NCBI GenBank assembly: GCA_015039365.1
Contig: WION01000036.1
Span: 62,001 to 126,000, forward strand
Direction of reading: 5' to 3'
Origin: Amanita rubescens
Taxonomy: Eukaryota > Basidiomycota > Agaricomycetes > Agaricales > Amanitaceae
DNA: 64,000 nt
Numbering within the stretch: position 1 is the stretch's first letter; every line of letters begins with the position of its first letter. The position numbers and the translations under genes were made by a program. Under the pieces are notes generated by a model that saw nothing but the letters and a program-made list of their open reading frames with translations, searched no databases and had not been told where the DNA came from. Shown in pieces: positions 5,043 through 50,215 of the stretch.

Positions 5043-5590
5043 GGTAAGGCTCTGAAAATCTCGTATGGATCACCATTTAGTCCAACATGTCCGATGTCGT
5101 ACGACGTGGCCGGCGCGATGTGTACCATTTCTCGTCGGTAACTTCCGGATCTCGTTCCCACCATCTACGCTCACCCCGCTATTTCCTTTTACAGACCAGC
5201 AACCGACGAACAGGAATGTCACCTATAGCCTTATCCTCTGCTTTATCCTTAAGAAGACTTGGACGACATTTTCGATGGATGAATTTCTCTTGTTTATCAT
5301 TCAAGATATCGCTTTTGCTATACCTCTGGCCATCATGTAGCTCTTGGACTCTAACGTTGCACCTTGCTTGATTAGATGGCTTGCTTCCAAATTCCACAGC
5401 GAACATCGTCGACGTCTTGTCCCCGGGCAGAGAGTACGGTGCGGCGTGCGCCCGCTCTCGTGGCCGTTATGGACTTCCTCCGTGGGACCTCGAAGTCCAC
5501 CGCGCAAAGCGATACGACATCACATCGATGTCATTCTGTCTGACAGGATGCATTCTACATGTACAATCTATATCTTAGTACAAATTTAAA
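5043..5590. other. Intergenic between peptidase and F-box gene
   Basis: Short overlapping frames on both strands without motifs. It probably contains the peptidase promoter and the F-box gene 3' end. Nothing else seen. Confidence 0.5.
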
Positions 5591-6897
5591 TTACCTACAA
5601 GTCTCTAGGACAGAATGACATGCGACGTGATTTTTCAAGTGGAACGTGACAAGTTTTAGAATACCAATTTCTTCCAATTCTTTTAAACCCTTCACCCGAC
5701 GCACTGCTTCAAAAAACATATCAGTATTTTCTGGATTGTAAATACCCAATATAATCTTGATCAGCTTCAGATTTGGGAACAGGCTCCGGAATTTATCGAG
5801 GCAATTTGGGGACTCGAAAAATCCCAACTTGGACAAGTATTCGTGTACTGAACTGTCATATAGAATGAACTTGAATTGAAGTTCCTCTAGAAGGTTTGGC
5901 GAAGGAAGAGCAGACAACATCTTCCACATGGCCGATACGAGACTTGCGTAGGCGAAATTGGGAAATCCGATAAATAGCGTCCGAAGGTTGATGCATTGCA
6001 GAACTTGGGTTGGCTCCAAATATTTTATTGATTCATCTGTGAGGGTTTACTCACTAAGGTGTCATATAACTGGAACACAAACGGGAGCTTACTGAACGTG
6101 GCAAAAGTATATGGCTTGATAAATGTGATGAGAAGTTGTTCGACGCTATGACCGATGTGCTGTAAAAATCGCCAGGTCAAGGGATCCGCAGCCCGAGCAA
6201 CGGGGTCCCGTATATGGAAGGTATGAATGGTAACGTCAAGGCCGGGGTTAACTAATGGATCAAGTACATGTTTAAAAAACGCGAGGGAGATGTTGTCGAG
6301 TATTCTGAAGTGGAGGGGACGACGAAATATGGATAGATGACGCGAGAAGCCCGAATGTTCTATTTCTTTAAACCGCAGCCTCCGGAAGGCAAGCGTTTTC
6401 AGAGTTGGTGAAAGCCGGCGGAACAATGCCACCACATCTTCGGCTTTCGTCATGCCCACGCCGTCCAACTGCAAATCGTGTATCTTCAATTCGAAGATCA
6501 CATCTAGGACGAAGCGCGGTACTTGTTTCCATCCATATTTCCAGAGCGAATGTATGAATATGCTCAGTGTCTTGACATTACAGAGGTTTGATGCGATTGT
6601 TTTAGGGTCTCTCTCATTGCCATAGTCGTAATTTCGACAGAACAAGTCTTGGAGGTGTATCTCTTCGACAGCGGACGTAAAGCTGGTCCATGGCGCACCG
6701 GCAAGGTTCAAGAACTGTTCAAAATCCTTGTCCGACCGGAACTCGAGGGTGGAAATTAGACGATGCCGGGTTCTGACAAGGGCACGTTTAGAGACGAGGC
6801 CGCAGGAAAGTAATGTCGATGTCTCGTCGAGTTGATCGATTAATTCGTCGAGAAGCTCTGGGGGAAATTTGGAGTCGCTAGCTAGATTGGCAGTGAT
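5591..6897 (-). CDS. F-box-like protein (5' end unresolved)
   Basis: Two exons traced on the minus strand: about 6897-6094, more exactly ending at 6093, and 5591-6036, joined across a 57-nt intron (gtaagc...cacag) in phase 1. The first residues (FPPELLDELIDQLDE, LLSCGLVSKRAL) have the spacing of the basidiomycete F-box motif. The rest is leucine-rich without clear repeats, like substrate-recognition parts of F-box proteins. The product would be an SCF ubiquitin-ligase adaptor. No in-frame ATG lies directly upstream: an in-frame TGA near 6900-6904 precedes the open frame, so either a short 5' exon is missing from my model or the gene is damaged. No stop inside the traced exons. Confidence 0.6.
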
Positions 6898-9802: not shown

Positions 9803-12800
9803 ATGGAAGATACTCATACAACTAGCATGCTTCTATCAAGTAGGCAAATATATGCATTTCTACTCCCTCCCCAAAATTTGACTGTGTATTTGGATATAGA
9901 TGACTCAGAGAAACATGTCAGAATGCTCAAAGATCAATACTTATGTCCCCATTTTCGTATCCTTGTCATAGGAAGGGCCAATGCTGGCAAAACAACCATC
10001 CTTGAGAAGATTTGTGGTGTAGCAAGGGGAACAAAGCCTATCATATATGACAAGGATGGTGGGCCTGCTTCAAATTTCTGCTTTTAAATTCTTAGTTCTT
10101 TGTAGGTAAAGAGCTTTTACCCACTGGGTCTCATTTGATTTCATCAATTGAGGTAAGTTGACTTGTAACATCTCAACATACTTTATTCATATCCGGTTAC
10201 ATATCACCAGAGAGGCCTTCATGATATTGAGCATCAAATCACATTTGATGGAAGTAATTTTATCTTCCATGACTCTCAAGGTTTTGAATCCGGTTCAACT
10301 GAGGAATTGGAGATTGTTTGGGACTTCATTGAAAAGAGGTCTGGAGAAACTGAGATAAAGAATCAGTTGCATGCAATTTGGTATATTCCTTGTGCTTTTA
10401 ACATCACATTCCTGATCTGGCTTATTGTACATGTAGGTACTGCATCCCCATGGATGGCCCTCGTCCCATTCTACCTGCAGAGCTTGCATTTTTTACAAAA
10501 GGGACTGGCAAAGGTAAATATTTATTGCTCAAATTGGCTTCTACCTGCCCCAAAATCTATGATGCCAGTGTGTTAACAAATTCATATAACCTTGCAGTTC
10601 CTTTGGTGGTTGTGTTTACCAAATTTGATGGTCAAATCATTAATGAATATGTTACCTTAATGAATCCATACATTGAAGATAAGTGGGAAATGGCTAGGAA
10701 CAATGCTGAACACACTTTTCAAGAGGTTTATCTTCCCAAAGTCTTAGATGCCAAATATCCTCCTAAGGCATATGTGCGATTGGAAGGTGAGAAGGCAAGC
10801 ATTCCATCTCTCTAGTAACATAAATAATATTGCTTGAAAAATAGACATGGATTTACCAGAGAAGCACTGTCCTGAATTAGCTCAACAGACTGCTGATGCA
10901 ATTGATGATGAAAGCTTGCATCATTTGTTTGTCTCAACACAGAAGAATAACCTTGATCTCTGTGTTAAAGCTGCATTTCAGTGAGGTTCATATTAAAGCA
11001 TTTCTTTTCATGCACTGACCATTCTCAGAGCCATCATCACTAAGAGTAATTTCACATGGGAAGACACTGCTATTGTTGTTCTTAGCAAATTTCCACATTA
11101 CTGGGTATGCATAGTTTGTTAAATATCTGCACAGCAATGTAGAAAGAATTGAAATGGGAACAGTTCCGCAGGCAGGCAGGTGTCCAATTTTATATGACAT
11201 GCTAAAGATTCACAAAATATGCAACAGCATGCAAGTAACACTGTGATTTATTTGCATGTGCCCTAATTAGCCTTGTGCTAGATGTCTGCTACAGAAATGA
11301 AAGAAATTCAGGTGTATTCTATCACATACCATTTGTACAAAGTTTAATGATTGGATGACAGTGGGTGAGCAAAATACAATCACTCATAAATATCATGCCT
11401 TGTCTCATGGCCACCAGTTTGTGAGTCATGCTTCTCTTAGTTATGTAAAAGTCTTGTCCCATGATCAACAGGAAGTGAGTGTGCCACTCAATTCCTGACA
11501 GGTACTAGTCCCATGGCTCATGATATGACCAACAGACAGTGAGTAAATCTACCTTTTAAACAGTGTTATCACACCATATTCTACAATTAAAAGGCAGTCA
11601 GTCTCACAACATTTTCCTGAACTTTGGGGCTCACACTATATCACATTCTATTACATCAAGAAAGTGAGTGACACCAACATTTTTTCTAACATCTACCCTG
11701 ATCCAATGAGCAACAGAATGTTTGTGACATTATACTTATATTTGAACAAATCTTGTTTAATTACATCTTAACAATAGCGAGTAAGTGACAGTGTCCATCC
11801 AACTACTGATATTCATTCTAAGCACTCAATAAAACAGGCAGTGAGTGAAGACCTACATTGTCTTGGCAGTCTTTTCACACTGACTACATGAACAAAAGAA
11901 AGTGAGTGATGACAGTACTGTCCACTCCTATGCTAGGATTTATCATGTCCTTATGTCACACAGTCAGTAAGTAATCCCATCATGCACTTTGGCAGGTATC
12001 TTATAACAGCTTGTGGTCATATGAACAACAGTATGTGAGTGAACTTGCACCTTTTTCTGAAACAAGCTCTGAGGAAATATTTATCACATAATCAGTCTGT
12101 GGGTAACATTAGACATTTGTCTGAAAGAAAGCTTCATCACCCCTTCTCTCCACAATGGATAGCATGCAAGTGACATTTATCTCTCTAGAAGGCAACCTCG
12201 TCACATCATGACAATTTTCCATGACAAATAGGAAGTGATTGACATTGTACTATCTTCTGAAAGCAATATTATGACATATATTTCTGCATCTAACAGGATG
12301 TGAGTGATATAGACATTTCTCTGATTGCAATCATCACAGCTCAATTCATATGGTCAACAGCATGTCAGTGACATTACTACAGATTTTTCTGATACTTAAC
12401 CTCATTATATTCTTCCTTTGGTTAACAGTATGTGAGTGACATTTAACAGTTGTCTGGAACAAATATTCATTGTATTTCTCTGTGGCCAACAGTTTGTCAG
12501 TTACAATTTTCTGCAATTCAGTTTCATCACTGGTTTTTCTATCACCAACAGGCAGTGAGTGAACAGTTTTGAAGTTTTTTATCACAGTCTCATCACACAA
12601 TTTCACATCCCCAATAGTTTGTGAGTGACATTTCATATTTTCTGAAAGGTAGCCTGATCACATATTACTCTGTTATCATCAACAGGGAGTGAGTCTGCAC
12701 AGTTTTCTGGTCTTCACACTTATCACATTGTTTTCTACTGCCTACAGTATGTAAGTGAACATATTGCTTGTAAGAGGTGACTTTACCACATCCTTTGCTG

Positions 12801-14601
12801 CTACCAGTTTGTTAGTGATGCTATACATTTTTCTGGAAAACTGTTTCATCACCTTGCCCTACAATCAACAGCGTGTGAGTGACAATGAGCATCTTCCAGA
12901 AAAGCAATCTCAGAATGTATTAAACAGGGAGTGAGTATCATCATGCAAAATTCTCAAGGGTGTCTTATCATCTAGCAATCATGTGATAACTTCTTCTATG
13001 ACCAACAGGCAGTAAGGGAATTATACATTTTCTAAAAAGCAAATTTATTACATACAATCTTTCTTTGACAAACAGCATGGAGTTAGTGTACTTGCATGAT
13101 TTTCTTCAAGGAAGCCTCACCATGTGTTATTTTCTTGGCCAACAGGAAGTGAGTTCTGTGTATTGTTCATTTCTCTGAAATACAGTCTTATGGCATATTT
13201 TCCTATGACCAACAGCCAGCAGTGAGTGGAATAAGATTACAATCCCCTGAGGTGTAGTCTTTTGACATTTTTCCTAACCAACAGAATGGAAATGTGAGTC
13301 ACATTGTATACATACACAATTTCTTCAAACCCTAATATATTTCTTTTCCTTCACCAACAGTTTGTGGGTGGCAATGCACATCATTCTGAAAAGCAACCTC
13401 ATGGTATATTCTGCAATGCACAACAGCCAGTGAGTAGCCTTATTATTAAAAGGCAGTCTTATCACATCATTTCTGGTCTTCAAAAGGTAGTGGGTTATAT
13501 TGTAACACATTTGTGAACAGGAGTCACATTATATCTGTTTCATGATCAATAGGGAGTGAGTGTCATCCTGCACTTTGAATGGCAGACTGGTTCATCACAT
13601 CTTCTCCTAGCATGCCCAACAGCGAGTGCGTGGCATTGCACATCTCATAAAATTCAATTTTATGGCACATTCTCATCATCAACAGCATGTGTGTGATATT
13701 TTACCTTTGTTGTAAAGTTAATTACATTTTGTCCATCTCCAACAGGAAGTAAGTGATATTTAAGGGAAGGAAGTCACATCTGAGTCGAGTCACATCTTAT
13801 ACAATTGAAAGTTTGTGAGTGATATTGTGCAATTTTATGTATGGGGATTCCCATGACCAACAGGGAGTGAGTGAGACTGAACATCTTTATGCTACCAAAA
13901 TCCATGATACTTCTAATGACAACAGAAAGTGAGTGGCACTAAAACTTTTGAACATGAGCCTCATTATATTCCAATCCATCAATGCTTGATGTATTATTTG
14001 AATGTAACAGGAAGTGAGCAGCATACAAGTGTCTTTCTGTGCTTTCCCCATTTTTACTGCTAACCATAGATTGTAAGATTGCTTTTCAGTTTGTCTAATT
14101 CCTGAGCTTTTGTGTCTTCCCAGGCAAGTGATATCAGCATGAGATTTATTAATACTGTGACATTTATCTATATGCTAGTTTGTAAGTCTGCTTCTGCATT
14201 TGAAACCTGATTCTTTCTTATAATATGAAAGGGACCACTTTTATCTTTGTTTGGAGATGTTCCAAACAAATTTTCAATAACTGTATGCATTACTCTTTCC
14301 CATCTGATAAATAACTGATATCAGCACAATTTGAAGCCCACAGCCTGCCAAGTTTTAATTTGTAAAAGTTGCTTCTCTTCACTAACTCTCTTCATGCTAA
14401 TGCATTCAAGCAATGAATATTATTGCTAAGCTATCATTTTGGATTGGCAAACCATTCCGGGAATCAGTCATGGAGGCTTTTGACAAATTTAAGAGAGAGG
14501 GCTATGTGCAGAAACTGAAAATGGCCATTACTTTGCAGGCCATAGATTTGAGCAAGGAAGACTTAGTTGTATTTATGTGCCAGCATGTGACCCACATTTG
14601 A
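9803..14601 (+). CDS. P-loop GTPase with array of one-codon exons (left copy)
   Basis: Leading exons: 9803-9839, 9900-10058, 10106-10152, 10211-10380, 10437-10513, 10598-10786, 10845-10980, 11029-11104; all phases agree (297 aa). Motifs: G1 GRANAGKTT at residues 37-45, G3-like DSQG and G4 TKFD, so it should bind guanine nucleotide. Then comes a run of tiny exons (see separate feature), including a 30-nt exon at 11282-11311 starting MSAT. It ends with 14232-14282, 14325-14361 and 14411-14601, the last with an FWIGKPFRESV segment. The junctions at 11105-11227 and 14073-14178 are not fully resolved. Estimated length is about 448 aa. It resembles the G-domain proteins expanded in Agaricomycetes; the cellular role is unknown. 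The first intron is supported by the mirrored copy, where an indel falls inside it. Confidence 0.75.
11225..14184 (+). repeat. Array of ~45 micro-exon units (mostly 3 nt) in GTPase gene
   Basis: Each unit is a 3' splice site, a short core and a 5' splice site. Examples: cag|TGG|gtgagc at 11362, cag|TTT|gtgagt at 11418, cag|GAA|gtgagt at 11472, cag|ACA|gtgagt at 11536, cag|GCA|gtgagt at 11838, cag|TAT|gtgagt at 12032, cag|GGA|gtgagt at 12686, cag|CGT|gtgagt at 12872. I count 42 cores of 3 nt, two of 6 nt (13076-13081, 13216-13221) and one of 9 nt (13285-13293). Spacers are 49-82 nt, mostly 53-67. Most acceptors end tgaccaacag or tgatcaacag. A few donors are weak (gtctca at 11601, gtttgt at 11720) and two are GC type (gcaagt at 11231 and 12166). 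Spacers share sequence with each other, so the units arose by duplication. Whether the cores are really spliced in is an inference. Confidence 0.8.
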
Positions 14602-15957: not shown

Positions 15958-16823
15958 TAGTGTTTACAGGTCAGGTCACAATAACTGGAAAATAACTGTA
16001 ACCTGACCTAACCGCTACCAGTTATAACCTGACTGTCGGTCACAGTTATACCAGTCAGTGATCAGTTACAGTTACAGTTATGGCCAATGGCCCAATTGGT
16101 ATAACTGATCTATAACTGGTCATGACTGGTCATAACCAGTTATGATGACCAACTTGAAATGGGTTATTTGTAGCGAACTACACTGTCTACATTATCTTGA
16201 ATTACCATATATCTTGAGCTCTAAAAGGGATACAACTCCGACTTACCCATGTATTTAAAAAGAAATTTTGAAAAAGATGACTACATGACCACTATACCTC
16301 CCAACTCTCTACCTCACAATCTTCAGAAAAATAGCAAAATACTCTGCCAATAATGACACTGCAATTGGTGGAGCATTTTCTATTTTTAGTTGCAGATTAT
16401 CCTATACATGTCACCACCAACCATCAGAAAAAATAGCAAAATACTCCACCAGTGACAACACTGCAATTGGTGGAGCATTTTTTATTTTCTACTTGCAAAT
16501 TATCCTATACATACATGCCACCAACCCTCAGAAAGAATAGCAAAATACTCTGCCGGTGATGAGACTGAAATTGGCAGAGCATTTTCAATTTCTATTTGCA
16601 GATTTTTAACTGGTCATGACCAGTTAGTATGACCAGTCAATCATAACCAGTCATCTTCTAACCAGTTATAACCAGTTACACAAGGTTAACCTGACCAGTT
16701 GTGACCAGTTACAACTGGTCAGGTTACAGTTACTAGGTTTAGGGGTCATTCAATAACTGGTTACAGTCACAGTTATTCAAAATTTGGGCAAATAACCTGA
16801 CCTGACCTGACCTGTAAACACTA
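15958..16823. mobile_element. Non-autonomous hAT-like MITE with 8-bp target duplication
   Basis: The 866-bp element starts TAGTGTTTACAGGTCAGGTC and ends with the inverse, a terminal inverted repeat of about 20 bp. It is flanked on both sides by the identical octamer gtgttaac (15950-15957 and 16824-16831). An 8-bp duplication and a TAGTG-type end fit the hAT superfamily. There is no transposase frame. Inside are many subterminal copies of short motifs such as taactggtcatgacc in both orientations, and a ~103-bp block repeated three times (16323-16610). Confidence 0.8.
16323..16610. repeat. Three tandem ~103-bp repeats inside the MITE
   Basis: Copies start with cagaaa(a/g)aatagcaaaatact at about 16324, 16424 and 16529. 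Each continues with a gcaattggtggagcatttt-like stretch and a tgca(g/a)att or similar end. They sit between the subterminal motif clusters of the element. Confidence 0.7.
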
Positions 16824-18088: not shown

Positions 18089-21000
18089 TCAAATGTGGGT
18101 CACATGCTGGCACATAAATACAACTAAGTCTTCCTTGCTCAAATCTATGGCCTGCAAAGTAATGGCCATTTTCAGTTTCTGCACATAGCCCTCTCTCTTA
18201 AATTTGTCAAAAGCCTCCATGACTGATTCCCGGAATGGTTTGCCAATCCAAAATGATAGCTTAGCAATAATATTCATTGCTTGAATGCATTAGCATGAAG
18301 AGAGTTAGTGAAGAGAAGCAACTTTTACAAATTAAAACTTGGCAGGCTGTGGGCTTCAAATTGTGCTGATATCAGTTATTTATCAGATGGGAAAGAGTAA
18401 TGCATACAGTTATTGAAAATTTGTTTGGAACATCTCCAAACAAAGATAAAAGTGGTCCCTTTCATATTATAAGAAAGAATCAGGTTTCAAATGCAGAAGC
18501 AGACTTACAAACTAGCATATAGATAAATGTCACAGTATTAATAAATCTCATGCTGATATCACTTGCCTGGGAAGACACAAAAGCTCAGGAATTAGACAAA
18601 CTGAAAAGCAATCTTACAATCTATGGTTAGCAGTAAAAATGGGGAAAGCACAGAAAGACACTTGTATGCTGCTCACTTCCTGTTACATTCAAATAATACA
18701 TCAAGCATTGATGGATTGGAATATAATGAGGCTCATGTTCAAAAGTTTTGGTACCACTCACTTTCTGTTGTCATTAGGAATGCCATGGATTTCCATAGTA
18801 TAAAGATGTTCAGTCCCACTTACTCCCTATTGGTCATGGGAATCCAATCCACACTGAAAATTGCACAATATCACTCACAAACTGTGAATTGTACAAGATG
18901 TGATGTGACTTCCTTCCCTTTAAATATCACTTACTCGCTGTTGGAGATGGACAAAATGTAATCAACTGTAGAACAAAGGTAAAATATCACACACATGCTG
19001 TTGATGATGAGAATGTGCTATGAAATTGAATTTATGAGAAGTGTAATGTCACACACTTGCAGTATGTCATGCTAGGAGAAGATGTGATAAACCAGTCTGC
19101 CATTCAAAGTGCAGAATCACCTGTTGGAAATAGGAGAATTTGCCATATTTCAGAGAAATGCAGCAGCGAATACACTGAACCCACTTCCTGTTGGCCAAGA
19201 AAAAACACATGATGAGGCTTCCTAAGTTGAGGAAAATCATGCAAGTGCACTGACATGATGCTATTTGTCAAAGAAAAATATGTAATAAAATTGCTTTTTA
19301 GAAATGTGTAATTCCCTTACAGCCTGTTGATCATAGAAGAAGTGATCATGTGATTGCTAGGTGATAAGACTCCCTTGAGAATTTCACATGATGATACTCA
19401 CTCCCTGTTTGTTGCATTCTGAGACTACTTTTCTGGAAGATGCTCATTGTCACTCACACTCTGTTGATTGTAGGACAAGGTGATGAAACAATTTTCCAGA
19501 AAAATGTATAGCATCACTGACAAACTGGTGGTGGTAAAGGATGTGGTGAAATCACCTCTTACTAGCAATATGTTCACTTACATACTGAAGGCAATAGAAA
19601 ACAATGTGATAAGTGTGACAACCATCCAAAAAACTGTGCAGACTGAACTCCCTGTTGGAGATAACAGTTGTAATATGTCATCACCTTTCAGAAAATATGA
19701 AATATCACTCACAAACTATTGGGGATGTGAAATTGTGTGATGAGACTGCCATCAAAATTTTAAAATATTCACTCACTGCCTGTTGGTGATAGAAAACCAG
19801 TGATGAGACTGGATTGCAGAAAATTGTGTAACATAACTGACAAACTGTTGGTCATAAAGAAATACAATGAATATTTGTTCCAGACAACTGTTAAATGTCA
19901 CTCACTGCCTGTTAACCATAGGAAGGAGGTTAAGTATCAGAAAAACATGTAATGCCACTGACATGCTGTTGACCATAAGAAATGAGCTGTGATGATTGCT
20001 GTTTATATCACCCACACTCTGTAGACATAGGAACAAATGTCATAAGATTGCTTTCAGAAAATAGTGCAATGTTAATCACACGCTATTAATTATCATGTGT
20101 TGAGGTTGCCTTCTAGAGAAATAAATGTCACTTGCATTCTGTCCATTGTAAGAAGAAGAGGTGATGAAGCTTTCTTTCAGACAAATGCCCAATGTTACCC
20201 ACAGACTGATTGCATGATTAATATTTCCTGAGAGTTTGTTTTAGACAAAGGTGCAAGTTCACTCACATACTGTTGTTCATATTACCACAAGCTGTTATAA
20301 GATGCCTGCCAAAGTGCATGATGGGATTACTTACTGACTGCGACATAAGGACATGATTAATTCTCCTAGTATAGGAGTGAACAGTGCACCACTCACTTTC
20401 TATTGTTCATGTACTCAGTGTGAAGAGACTGCCCAGAAGACAATGTAGGTCTTCACTCACTACCTGTATTGAGTGACTTAGAATGAATATCAGTAGTTGG
20501 ATGGACACTGTCACTTACTCGCTATTGTTAAGATGTAATTAAACAAGATTTGTTCAAATATAAGTATAATGTCACAAACATTCTGTTGCTTGTTGGATCA
20601 GGGTAGACATTAAAAAAATGTTAATGTCACTCACTTTCTTGATGTGATAGAATGTGATGCAGTGTGAGTCCCAAGGTCAGGAAAATATTGTGACACTGAC
20701 TGCCTTTTAATTATAGAATGTAGCAGGACAACATTGTTTAAATGGGTAGATTTACTCACTGTCTGTTGGTCACATCATGAGCCATGGGACTCCCTGTCAG
20801 GAATTAAGTGGTACACTCACTTCCTGTTGATGATGGGACAAGACATTTACATAACCAAGTGAAGCATCACTCACAAACTGATGGTCATGAGACAAGGCAC
20901 CATATGTATCTACATGAGTGGTTGAATTTTGCTCACCCACTGCCATCCAATCATTAAACTTTGTACAAATGGTATGTGATAGAATACACCTGAATTTCTT

Positions 21001-22500
21001 TCATTTCTGTAGCAGACATCTAGCACAAGGCTAATTAGGGCACATGCAAATAAATCACAGTGTTACTTGCATGCTGTTGCATATTTTGTGAATCTTTAGC
21101 ATGTCATATAAAATTGGACACCTGCCTGCCTGCGGAACTGTTCCCAATTCAATTCTTTCTACATTGCTGTGCAGATATTTAACAAACTATGCATACCCAG
21201 TAATGTGGAAATTTGCTAAGAACAACAATAGCAGTGTCTTCCCATGTGAAATTACTCTTATTGATGATGGCTCTGAGAATGGTCAGTGCATGAAAAGAAA
21301 TGCTTTAATATGAACCTCACTGAAATGCAGCCTTAACACAGAGATCAAGGTTATTCTTCTGTGTTGAGACAAACAAATGATGTAAGCTTTCATCATCAAT
21401 TGCATCAGCAGTCTGTTGAGCTAATTCAGGACAGTGCTTCTCTGGTAAATCCATGTCTATTTTTCAAGCAATATTATTTATGTTACTAGAGAGATGGAAT
21501 GCTTGCCTTCTCACCTTCCAATCGCACATATGCCTTAGGAGGATATTTGGCATCTAAGACTTTGGGAAGGTAAACCTCTTGAAAAGTATGTTCAGCATTG
21601 TTCCTAGCCATTTCCCACTTATCTTCAATGTATGGATTCATTAAGGTAACATATTCATTAATGATTTGACCATCAAATTTGGTAAACACAACCACCAAAG
21701 GAACTGCAAGGTTATGTATATGAATTTTGTTAATACACTGGCATCATAGATTTTGGGGCAGGTAGAAGCCAATTTGAGCAATAAATATTTACCTTTGCCA
21801 GTCCCTTTTGTAAAAAATGCAAGCTCTGCAGGTAGAATGGGACGAGGGCCATCCATGGGGATGCAGTACCTACATACAATAAGCCAGATCAGGAATGTGA
21901 GTTAAAAGCACAAGGAATATACCAAATTGCATGCAACTGATTCTTTATCTCAGTTTCTCCAGACCTCTTTTCAATGAAGTCCCAAACAATCTCCAATTCC
22001 TCAGTTGCACCAGATTCAAAACCTTGAGAGTCATGGAAGATAAAATTACTTCCATCAAATGTGATTTGATGCTCAATATCATGAAGGCCTCTCTGGTGAT
22101 ATGTAACTGGATATGAACAAAGTATGTTGAGATGTCACAAGTCAACTTACCTCAACTGATGAAATCAAATGAGACCCAGTGGGTAAAAGCTCTTTACCTA
22201 CAAAGAACTAAGAATTTAAAAGCAGAAATTTGAGGCAGGCTTACCATCCTTGTCATATATGATAGGCTTTGCTCCCCTTGCTACACCACAAATCTTCTCA
22301 AGGACAGTTGTTTTGCCAGCATTGGCCCTTCCTATGATAAGGATACGAAAATGGGGACATAGGTATTGATCTTTGAGCATTTTGACATGTTTCTCTGAGT
22401 CATCTATATCCAAATACACTAGTCAAATTTTGGGAGGGGATAGAAATGCATATATTTGCCTACTTGATAGAAGCATGCTAGTTGTATGAGTATCTTCCAT
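18089..22500 (-). CDS. P-loop GTPase with array of one-codon exons (right copy)
   Basis: Mirror copy of the gene at 9803-14601, starting at ATG 22500. The G-domain exons keep GRANAGKTT, DSQG and TKFD with few substitutions (for example AIINKS where the left copy has AIITKS). The second intron has a better donor here (gtaagc, against gtgggc on the left). The region that would be translated if the first intron were retained is frameshifted, which supports that intron. The last exon 18089-18279 encodes the same C-terminal peptide as the left copy. The two genes face each other at their 3' ends across the spacer. Intact frames in both copies suggest both are under some constraint, but expression is unknown. 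Confidence 0.7.
18509..21073 (-). repeat. Mirrored micro-exon array (right copy)
   Basis: On the plus strand the units read as actcac|NNN|ctgttg, the complement of cag|NNN|gtgagt. About 37 units align one-to-one with the left array. Units matching left 13216-13489 are missing here. The core that is GGA at 13553 is absent at 19115-19123, leaving acceptor and donor directly abutting. The 6-nt unit is kept as CATCAT instead of CATGGA. Core differences include GCA/GTA (20461), CAT/AAT (20136), GAA/CGT (20080), GAT/AGT (20016), TAT/GCA (19906), CGT/AGT (19458), GCA/GCT (19321) and GAA/CGA (18935), left codon first. Confidence 0.75.
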
Positions 22501-49765: not shown

Positions 49766-50215
49766 GTTCTATCCTGGACAACGATCGTCCAAGATTTGTT
49801 TGAGTATGTATTGTCACCTTCGAGGTCATCATGTATGAAGTAGGCCAAAATAAATATGACCCGAATGATTTGTCTCAATTTGTCATGTTCTATCCTACAC
49901 AACGATCGTCCAAGATTTGTTTGAGTAGTATGTATTGCCATCTTCGAGGCCATCATTTGTTGTGTTCACGATGCTTCACAAATGATCATTAATACCCGAA
50001 TGGTTTGTCTCGTCTCAATTTGTCATGTTCTATCCTGTGGCACAACGATCGTCCAAGATTTGTTTGAGTATGTATTGCCACCTTCGAGGTCATCATTTGT
50101 TGTGTTCACGATGCTTCACAAATGATCATTAATACCCGCCGAATGATTTGTCTCATCTCAATTTGTCATGTTCTATCCTGCACAACGATCGTCCAAGATT
50201 TGTTTGAGTATCATG
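49766..50215. repeat. Minisatellite, four ~120-143-bp units
   Basis: The unit begins gttctatcct and holds acaacgatcgtccaagattt. Starts are at 49766, 49887, 50027 and 50170 (the last one truncated). Later units contain an extra tgttgtgttcacgatgcttc segment. It lies between the convergent 3' ends of the kinase gene and the oxygenase-like gene. Confidence 0.8.

Follow-up and report, generated by a model that had tools for sequence, protein, structure and literature searches.

A GTPase gene family of Amanita rubescens with a coding tract apparently spliced from serial one-codon exons

Introduction

The window analysed here is a 64,000-nt stretch of the Amanita rubescens genome, bases 62001-126000 of contig C289 (313786 bases) in an assembly of 75.7 Mb and 786 contigs. 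At 9803-14601 on its forward strand lies a GTPase gene whose middle part is, in all likelihood, spliced together from dozens of tiny exons, most of them a single codon long. Such a one-codon-per-exon segment had been proposed in a preliminary description made from the letters alone, and the evidence below supports it.

Very short exons are known from several genes. RPS24 reportedly has a 3-bp exon, and three ultra-short exons. Plant APC11 contains a 1-nt exon (PMC8831610) and fungal Xlr2 a micro-exon (PMC11121469). The window gene resembles all three in having tiny exons between ordinary introns, but theirs are single, two adjacent or three exons rather than a long series.

Schistosome micro-exon genes (MEGs), with longer exons, had been named in the preliminary description as a parallel, and the published dimensions agree: in Schistosoma mansoni there are 10 to 20 micro-exons per gene, of 6-81 bp and mostly 15 bp (3-81 bp in the abstract), with introns of 0.1-5 kb (PMC10526429). 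Like the MEGs, the window gene has a run of many consecutive coding exons that are very short and in most cases divisible by three in length, and belongs to a fast-evolving family. Its dimensions do not fit the 6-81 bp and 0.1-5 kb of those genes, however, since 41 of its 47 micro-exons are 3 nt and the introns between them are 49-106 nt, and its product is a GTPase. Aphid bicycle genes have about 17 exons, the internal ones nearly all in phase 2, and the aphid megacycle genes more than 100 micro-exons for about 2000 residues (PMC9168663), which amounts to some 20 codons per exon. These are likewise rapidly evolving families with many micro-exons of one phase, but the Amanita micro-exons are in phase 0 and the window gene has 58 exons, which sets it apart from the bicycle genes.

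Many near-identical introns within one genome have been described as introners (PMC9860276) and stwintrons (PMC12403724). A near-identical 62-nt intron is also found at many places in A. rubescens, on five contigs; unlike introners and stwintrons, which are described as sitting at separate insertion sites, the Amanita introns form a tandem series with one codon between neighbours. Among the matches listed in searches of the open PMC literature, preprints and most subscription journals being outside that scope, there was no report of serial one-codon exons and no paper that combines introners and Amanita. The structure of the gene is an extreme of a micro-exon gene; the cassette array, in which identical introns separate varying codons, has to our knowledge no described counterpart in the open papers searched.

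Results

Structure of the window gene

The gene is intact. Its final list of 58 exons splices into 1359 nt with a single open frame of 453 codons including the stop (452 aa). Acceptors are AG in 57/57 introns and donors GT in 54/57, the other three being GC. The product starts MEDTHTTSMLLSNDSEKHV, followed by the GTPase domain. MEG products are secreted with a signal peptide, for which the start of the window product was judged by eye. Eight ordinary exons (9803..11104) encode a peptide of the form MEDTHTTSM..GRANAGKTT..FTKFD..FPHYW, in which GRANAGKTT and FTKFD are P-loop GTPase motifs. The array follows at 11164-14181, where 47 micro-exons (at most 30 nt, all multiples of three) encode 67 aa, and 41 of them are exactly 3 nt.

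A regular-expression scan and a free-length parse both recovered the acceptor-codon-donor units where they had first been described. The parser used dynamic programming with core length left free from 0 to 15 nt, and in the window most of the cores it returned were 3 nt long, the internal exceptions measuring 6, 6 and 9 nt; weaker chance chains on other strands and at other places had scattered core lengths. One zero-length and one 15-nt unit, also returned at the 5' end, are misread longer or GC-donor exons. The original estimate of about 45 micro-exons holds as to serial 3-nt exons, while the final count is 47, with 41 of one codon. The proposed phase 0 frame is borne out by the spliced list, all micro-exon junctions being phase 0 (only the final intron, behind the array, was noted as phase 1). 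The 48 introns around the micro-exons fall within the spacer range first given, 49-82 nt, except for one of 106 nt (14073-14178).

Evidence for splicing

A protein search with the conceptual product of the window gene, array peptide included, returned annotated A. rubescens proteins together with jgi proteins whose contigs measure about 1-1.7 kb. One of the latter, P0022, has 285 aa from a 1099-nt contig, whereas the same residues cover about 4 kb of genomic DNA. It joins the core codons in order, and is thus the kind of product that the preliminary description had predicted in the event of splicing: ..FPHYW FRRQ H MSATEMKEIQ WFETAKNRAKSYS H EDHYFAFGYFRGAHGPEPTKGIFPK G HAQQR HEFGKEI F GPLLSLFG... 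Spliced onto the paralogous locus L003, P0022 occupies 53 exons, 40 of them one codon long and 40/40 identical; 278/284 aligned residues are identical overall, and P0022 ends at the L003 stop. One-codon exons match in 38/40 cases at L002, 39/40 at L004 and 38/39 at L005. The strings WFETAKNRAKSYS (13/13) and EDHYFAFGYFRGAHGPEPTKGIFPK (25/25) had been parsed from L003 and L005 without P0022, and both occur in it.

On the window itself, the residues of P0022 fall in order on AG/codon/GT units, differing in one array codon (V for K) and in three residues within 6- and 9-nt exons. P and E of P0022 were badly placed by the aligner, because the window has just E there, and GGAGTTAGT was merged because P0022 has PE at that place. 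Forty residue-shuffled peptides matched at most three one-codon exons, against 35 for the real peptide. Several stretches of P0022 were absent from the search query (FRRQ, H, MSATEMKEIQ, PE, PT, KGI, HAQQ and the tail exons), and each is flanked by splice sites in the genome. Given 285 residues on 1099 nt, compared with about 4 kb of genomic DNA, and the absence of ordinary introns, the contig of P0022 represents either spliced RNA or a retrocopy.

A second case is P0015 (478 aa, 1486-nt contig), whose GTPase part has its best genomic match at C1:29740-30945 (86-90%), with strict units at C1:33352. Locus L038 (C1:32700-34200) was picked as the nearest to that match. Parsed without P0015, it yielded 24 cores, all 3 nt, reading GYYGGEKISEKERDKRKDFVEREI; P0015 has GYYGGKKISEKERDHRRDFVEREI, and 21/24 residues agree, compared with 11/24 for the best of 200 shuffles. 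When P0015 was aligned to L038 by splicing, the default intron penalty led to a false match without splicing, and a lower value picked after that result led to 23 one-codon exons in order; we rely on the parse. From contig size and the lack of ordinary introns we infer that P0022 and P0015 derive from spliced RNA.

Three further jgi proteins, P0010, P0024 and P0054, pass through the tract into the tail. Searching with P0022's array plus tail retrieved P0022 itself and one tail-only relative. AlphaFold confidence (pLDDT) for P0015 is below 50 at 316-332 and 334-360, in and just before the tract, and mostly above 80 in the flanks. The annotated protein closest to the window gene is P0001, 'hypothetical protein F5887DRAFT_1135775 [Amanita rubescens]', and the array is in 0/6 annotated A. 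rubescens proteins inspected (P0001, P0002, P0016, P0021, P0081, P0104). A predicted tryptic peptide across the tract of the window gene is SYSHEDHYFAFGYFR.

Exons of the window gene and the partner copy

Features are listed by position in the window.

9803-9839, 9900-10058, 10106-10152, 10211-10380, 10437-10513, plus strand: first five of eight ordinary GTPase exons, read against P0001
10598-10786, 10845-10980, 11029-11104, plus strand: last three of the eight; P0022 spliced alignment covers 10606-11104
11164-11175, plus strand: FRRQ, 12 nt, donor gcaggt (P0022 spliced alignment; frame)
11228-11230, plus strand: H (CAT), one codon, donor gcaagt (P0022 spliced alignment; frame)
11282-11311, plus strand: MSATEMKEIQ, 30 nt (P0022 spliced alignment; frame)
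11362..12165, plus strand: fourteen one-codon exons W F E T A K N R A K S Y S H, with first bases 11362, 11418, 11472, 11536, 11594, 11661, 11717, 11778, 11838, 11899, 11964, 12032, 12096, 12163 (parse, P0022, frame)
12232..13011, plus strand: thirteen one-codon exons E D H Y F A F G Y F R G A, with first bases 12232, 12297, 12361, 12429, 12493, 12552, 12618, 12686, 12748, 12808, 12872, 12928, 13009 (parse, P0022, frame)
13076..13625, plus strand: mixed micro-exons, all multiples of three (unit scan, parse, P0022, frame), namely the next six lines
13076-13081, plus strand: CATGGA, HG
13146-13148, plus strand: GAA, E (unit scan and parse)
13216-13221, plus strand: CCAGCA, PA
13285-13293, plus strand: AATGGAAAT, NGN
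First bases 13361, 13427, 13487, 13553, plus strand: TTT (F), CCA (P), GTA (V), GGA (G)
13611-13625, plus strand: CATGCCCAACAGCGA, HAQQR, 15 nt
First bases 13686, 13746, 13812, 13864, 13926, 14011, 14070, 14179, plus strand: eight one-codon exons H E F G K E I F (parse, P0022, frame)
14232-14282, plus strand: tail exon GPLLSLFGDVPNKFSIT (P0022 spliced alignment)
14337-14361, plus strand: tail exon PTACQVLI(S), 25 nt (P0022 spliced alignment)
14411-14601, plus strand: last exon MNIIAKLSFWIGKPF.., with stop TGA at 14599-14601 (P0022 alignment to 14589; stop from frame)
18101..21695, minus strand: second, inverted copy of the gene, which also contains a one-codon array (DNA match; P0022 spliced on the minus strand)

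Three introns of the window array are GC-AG, starting at 11176, 11231 and 12166 with donors gcaggt, gcaagt and gcaagt, and P0022 supports all of them. The exon set first proposed had lacked both CAT exons before GC donors (11228-11230 and 12163-12165) as well as FRRQ at 11164-11175, HAQQR at 13611-13625 and the 25-nt exon at 14337-14361. The CAT exon at 12163-12165 closes a run whose preceding 13 codons (W..S) were found by the parse without P0022.

The partner copy contains two DNA stretches matching the window gene at 87 and 91% identity. Its array is conserved at the ends and diverged in the middle, where it is partly resolved by the P0022 alignment. Inverted gene pairs like this one were also seen on C67, C328 and C23. 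Elsewhere in the window there are ordinary tandem repeats at 16323-16604 and 49872-50211, whose units recur every 102 and 140 bp.

Arrays across the genome

The window gene is one member of a large A. rubescens family. The strict pair pattern ACAG-N3-GTGAGT-N42..70-ACAG-N3-GTGAGT has 1307+1103 = 2410 matches genome-wide and its reversed form none; an N4 version has 0+1 matches and an N2 version 1+5, every one of the latter in arrays on C13 and C749. Twenty-nine loci (L002-L030) were taken for their match to the window array or their position beside such matches, and are therefore no random sample; every one holds at least one array of mainly 3-nt cores. The largest of the fetched arrays have 86 or 87 three-nt cores (L009, L010, L032). 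Since 38 parsed arrays contain 711 strict pairs and 1726 three-nt cores, the 2410 pairs extrapolate to about 5,850 one-codon exons that the genome may have, near-identical copies included. L001 was dropped as the window itself, and after it the window's minus-strand array and 11 loci as near-copies. This left 25 deduplicated arrays, in which 1156/1185 internal non-empty cores are multiples of three; most of the exceptions come from L014 and L020.

Codon content

The 1160 three-nt cores of the deduplicated arrays contain 2 stops (TAA 0, TAG 0, TGA 2), where position frequencies predict 71.3; over all arrays of the free-length parse the count is 2/1475 against 109.5 expected. Both TGA cores are in loci that may be pseudogenes, one in L006 at the place of window position 13746, the other in the L023 array at 5161-6024. 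By first base, xAA cores have T 0, C 123, A 77 and G 148, xAT cores T 42, C 29, A 17 and G 51, so that a first-base T occurs in 42/139 cores before AT and 83/231 before TT, compared with 0/348 before AA and 2/262 before GA.

Grouped by second base, the third base after A is A in 348 cores and T in 139; after G, A in 262, T in 8 and G in 27; after T, T in 231 and A in 21; after C, A in 48 and T in 22. The codons used are NAA, NAT, NGA, NTT, NCA and NCT, with few NGT, NTA, NAG and NNC. NGT would be avoided because a competing GT arises, and NTA and CAG because a competing YAG arises; what remains is close to a single codon for each amino acid, with Cys nearly missing (two TGT). L014 holds 13/16 CTA cores.

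Variation between units and between copies

Where the arrays are homogenised, it is mainly the codons that vary. Across 21 array pieces whose introns are 62 nt long, units differ in their codons at 0.09-0.79 per site, while the introns differ at 0.004-0.033 per site in ten pieces and 0.036-0.116 in eleven, a codon/intron ratio of 4.7 to 78; up to 41 introns within one array are identical. Only pieces of at least eight equal-length units were tabulated. The window's own array is outside this table because its introns vary in length and sequence; it is an older, more diverged type.

Comparisons between loci give examples of change by unit and by codon. L009 and L010 are set apart by a single 65-nt unit with an additional CGA codon, plus one substitution and seven gapped intron bases, and L013 and L015 by two adjacent codons, their introns differing at 4/3435 sites. 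Among proteins, P0010 and P0024 are 95% identical on either side of the tract (288/303 before, 87/92 after), compared with 25/47 aligned residues within it, where they have 66 and 49 residues. When gene copies were compared in ten pairs, with 76-88 sites of each kind, every aligned AG and GT was unchanged.

Purifying selection on cores was rejected as a general rule, as the copies disagree. The two gene copies of the window differ at 22/129 core sites and 178/2017 intron sites (p 0.004). L006 differs from L007 and L008 at 5/105 and 5/93 core sites, above the introns. The window gene differs from L002-L005 at 1-2 of 123 core sites, and 68-95 changes fall on about 2860 intron sites; by the corrected exon list, 1 to 6 of 156 core sites differ. 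An excess of identical adjacent residues was also considered; it appeared in L027 (p 0.017) and L019 (p 0.049), and most other arrays have no clear excess.

Two jgi proteins, P0110 and P0112, are of the same GTPase family with similar G domains, and have different H-, E-, Y-, L- and R-rich stretches at the position of the array. Judging from these, other Agaricomycetes perhaps have one-codon arrays as well.

Discussion

We are highly confident that the array is best explained as a genuine coding segment in one-codon exons, and as part of a cassette family. The spliceosome would remove 48 short introns in series and join the single codons in phase 0, and the mRNA would then encode, in order, the GTPase domain, a stem (W F E ..), the variable tract and a C-terminal helical part.

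Several observations weigh against this reading. P0022 and P0015 are known as proteins with a contig size only, and an intronless retrocopy would look alike; if a retrocopy stood behind P0022, splicing would be proven all the same. The parse of L003 made without P0022 skipped an H (GC donor) and HAQQ and inserted one V. P0003, P0008 and P0061 enter the tract and have no tail, and P0006 and P0055 stop shortly after FPHxW; these five may be unspliced, mis-spliced or cut off. For the most homogenised array type there was no transcript-like protein in a search with the L010 model, which matched P0015 alone. TTA cores are absent just as stops are, so the avoidance of T..A must be partly due to something besides stops, probably competing acceptors. 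L014 and L020 have cores of 1, 2 and 4 nt and are out of frame as assembled. Selection is mixed: between the two gene copies in the window cores differ more than introns, but in close copies of the window gene they vary either less than the introns or to about the same extent. Finally, neither an amphipathic helix nor a coiled coil is supported as the feature under selection across 26 variable peptides (Stouffer z 1.0), L024 (p 0.007) and L031 (p 0.018) scoring singly and L009 and L021 lying at the other extreme.

The odd-length cores of L014 (C13:578000-587900) and L020 (C749:1-9500) lie between otherwise near-identical introns, and it is possible that they reflect decay, or assembly consensus errors in near-identical repeats.

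The preliminary description had itself raised the alternative of a minisatellite inside one long intron, imitating splice sites, with cores that never reach the mRNA. The units are indeed tandem, and nearly identical in other arrays; the outer exons are in phase 0, hence the frame survives skipping of all cores, and in the annotated P0081 the tail follows FPHYW with no tract between them. Yet the core residues stand in order in P0022 and P0015, stops are avoided, core lengths are multiples of three and AG and GT are invariant, and we give a minisatellite next to no credence; if both proteins are read from their contigs without interruption, it is already excluded at the two loci. We regard as just as improbable a recursive splicing of one long intron, in which the AG/NNN/GT units are stepping stones and their codons are usually removed. 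The close AG-GT resembles recursive splice sites and in most arrays the parse gave a zero-length AG/GT unit close to the 5' end, but that of the window is the 3' end of the real 30-nt exon, the product contains the codons, and recursive splicing requires neither a 3-nt length nor the absence of stops.

Two other possibilities concern how the exons arose and how they are used. A mobile intron (introner) may have been put between every two codons of a pre-existing ordinary exon sequence, or may have replaced introns by reverse splicing, leaving unrelated codons between identical introns; the spread of fungal introners has been interpreted as reverse splicing (PMC9860276). The exact 62-nt intron recurs in arrays on C13, C79 and C749, with near-identical versions on C1 and C3, and identical introns with diverse codons would suit a recent spread. 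We nevertheless consider this unlikely, though it deserves serious weight: insertion at each codon boundary, solely in phase 0, has no known cause, unit-sized indels exist, and the C8 array is dominated by a shorter intron variant, which indicates local amplification. That the arrays serve mainly as isoform generators, any subset of one-codon exons being skippable in frame to give many peptides per gene, seems to us rather less probable again. Nearly all units are multiples of three in phase 0, so skips would be tolerated, and schistosome MEGs vary through splicing (PMC10526429); the sole transcript-like match of the window subfamily, P0022, has all codons, however, and no skipped form appeared in the search with its array and tail, a very small sample of two matched proteins.

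Returning to the cassette family, the variable tract of many members consists of 65-bp cassettes, each one codon plus a near-identical 62-nt intron. It is best read as a hypervariable linker, and the gain, loss or exchange of whole cassettes would alter the protein one residue at a time with the frame kept. Point mutation after duplication cannot explain strongly divergent codons between identical introns, unless the introns are homogenised or the variants selected. We infer that diversifying selection keeps the codons apart and that recombination or gene conversion equalises the introns; frequent cassette recombination with diversifying selection is the explanation we favour, with intron spread by reverse splicing as its chief rival.

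The tract would form a recognition or interaction surface of a septin/IRG-like GTPase. Immunity-related (IRG, p47) GTPases combine a GTPase domain with a helical domain. PF01926 (MMR_HSR1), precomputed on some relatives from the search with the window product, scores 16.1 bits in P0015, 19.3 in P0010 and 21.1 in P0101, compared with a curated cut-off of 21.9. As a tentative proposal, which we hold at somewhat less than an even chance, the family may be a codon-by-codon diversity system of immune-type or self-recognition GTPases with interchangeable 65-bp cassettes and a restricted codon alphabet. Identical introns would serve as recombination tracts, so that residues could be added, removed and exchanged singly in frame, and skipping of single codons could add further variants.

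In a 3-nt exon the codon doubles as splice-site context, and the sequence suggests a rule by which the codons used are mostly ones without a competing GT or strong AG. With 41 one-codon exons in the window gene and up to 87 in a single array, these genes test exon definition and the steric model of the spliceosome. Gene annotation loses the array, and by extrapolation thousands of exons may be absent from the annotation of this genome. Homogenised introns around varying codons look like an undescribed route to protein diversity.

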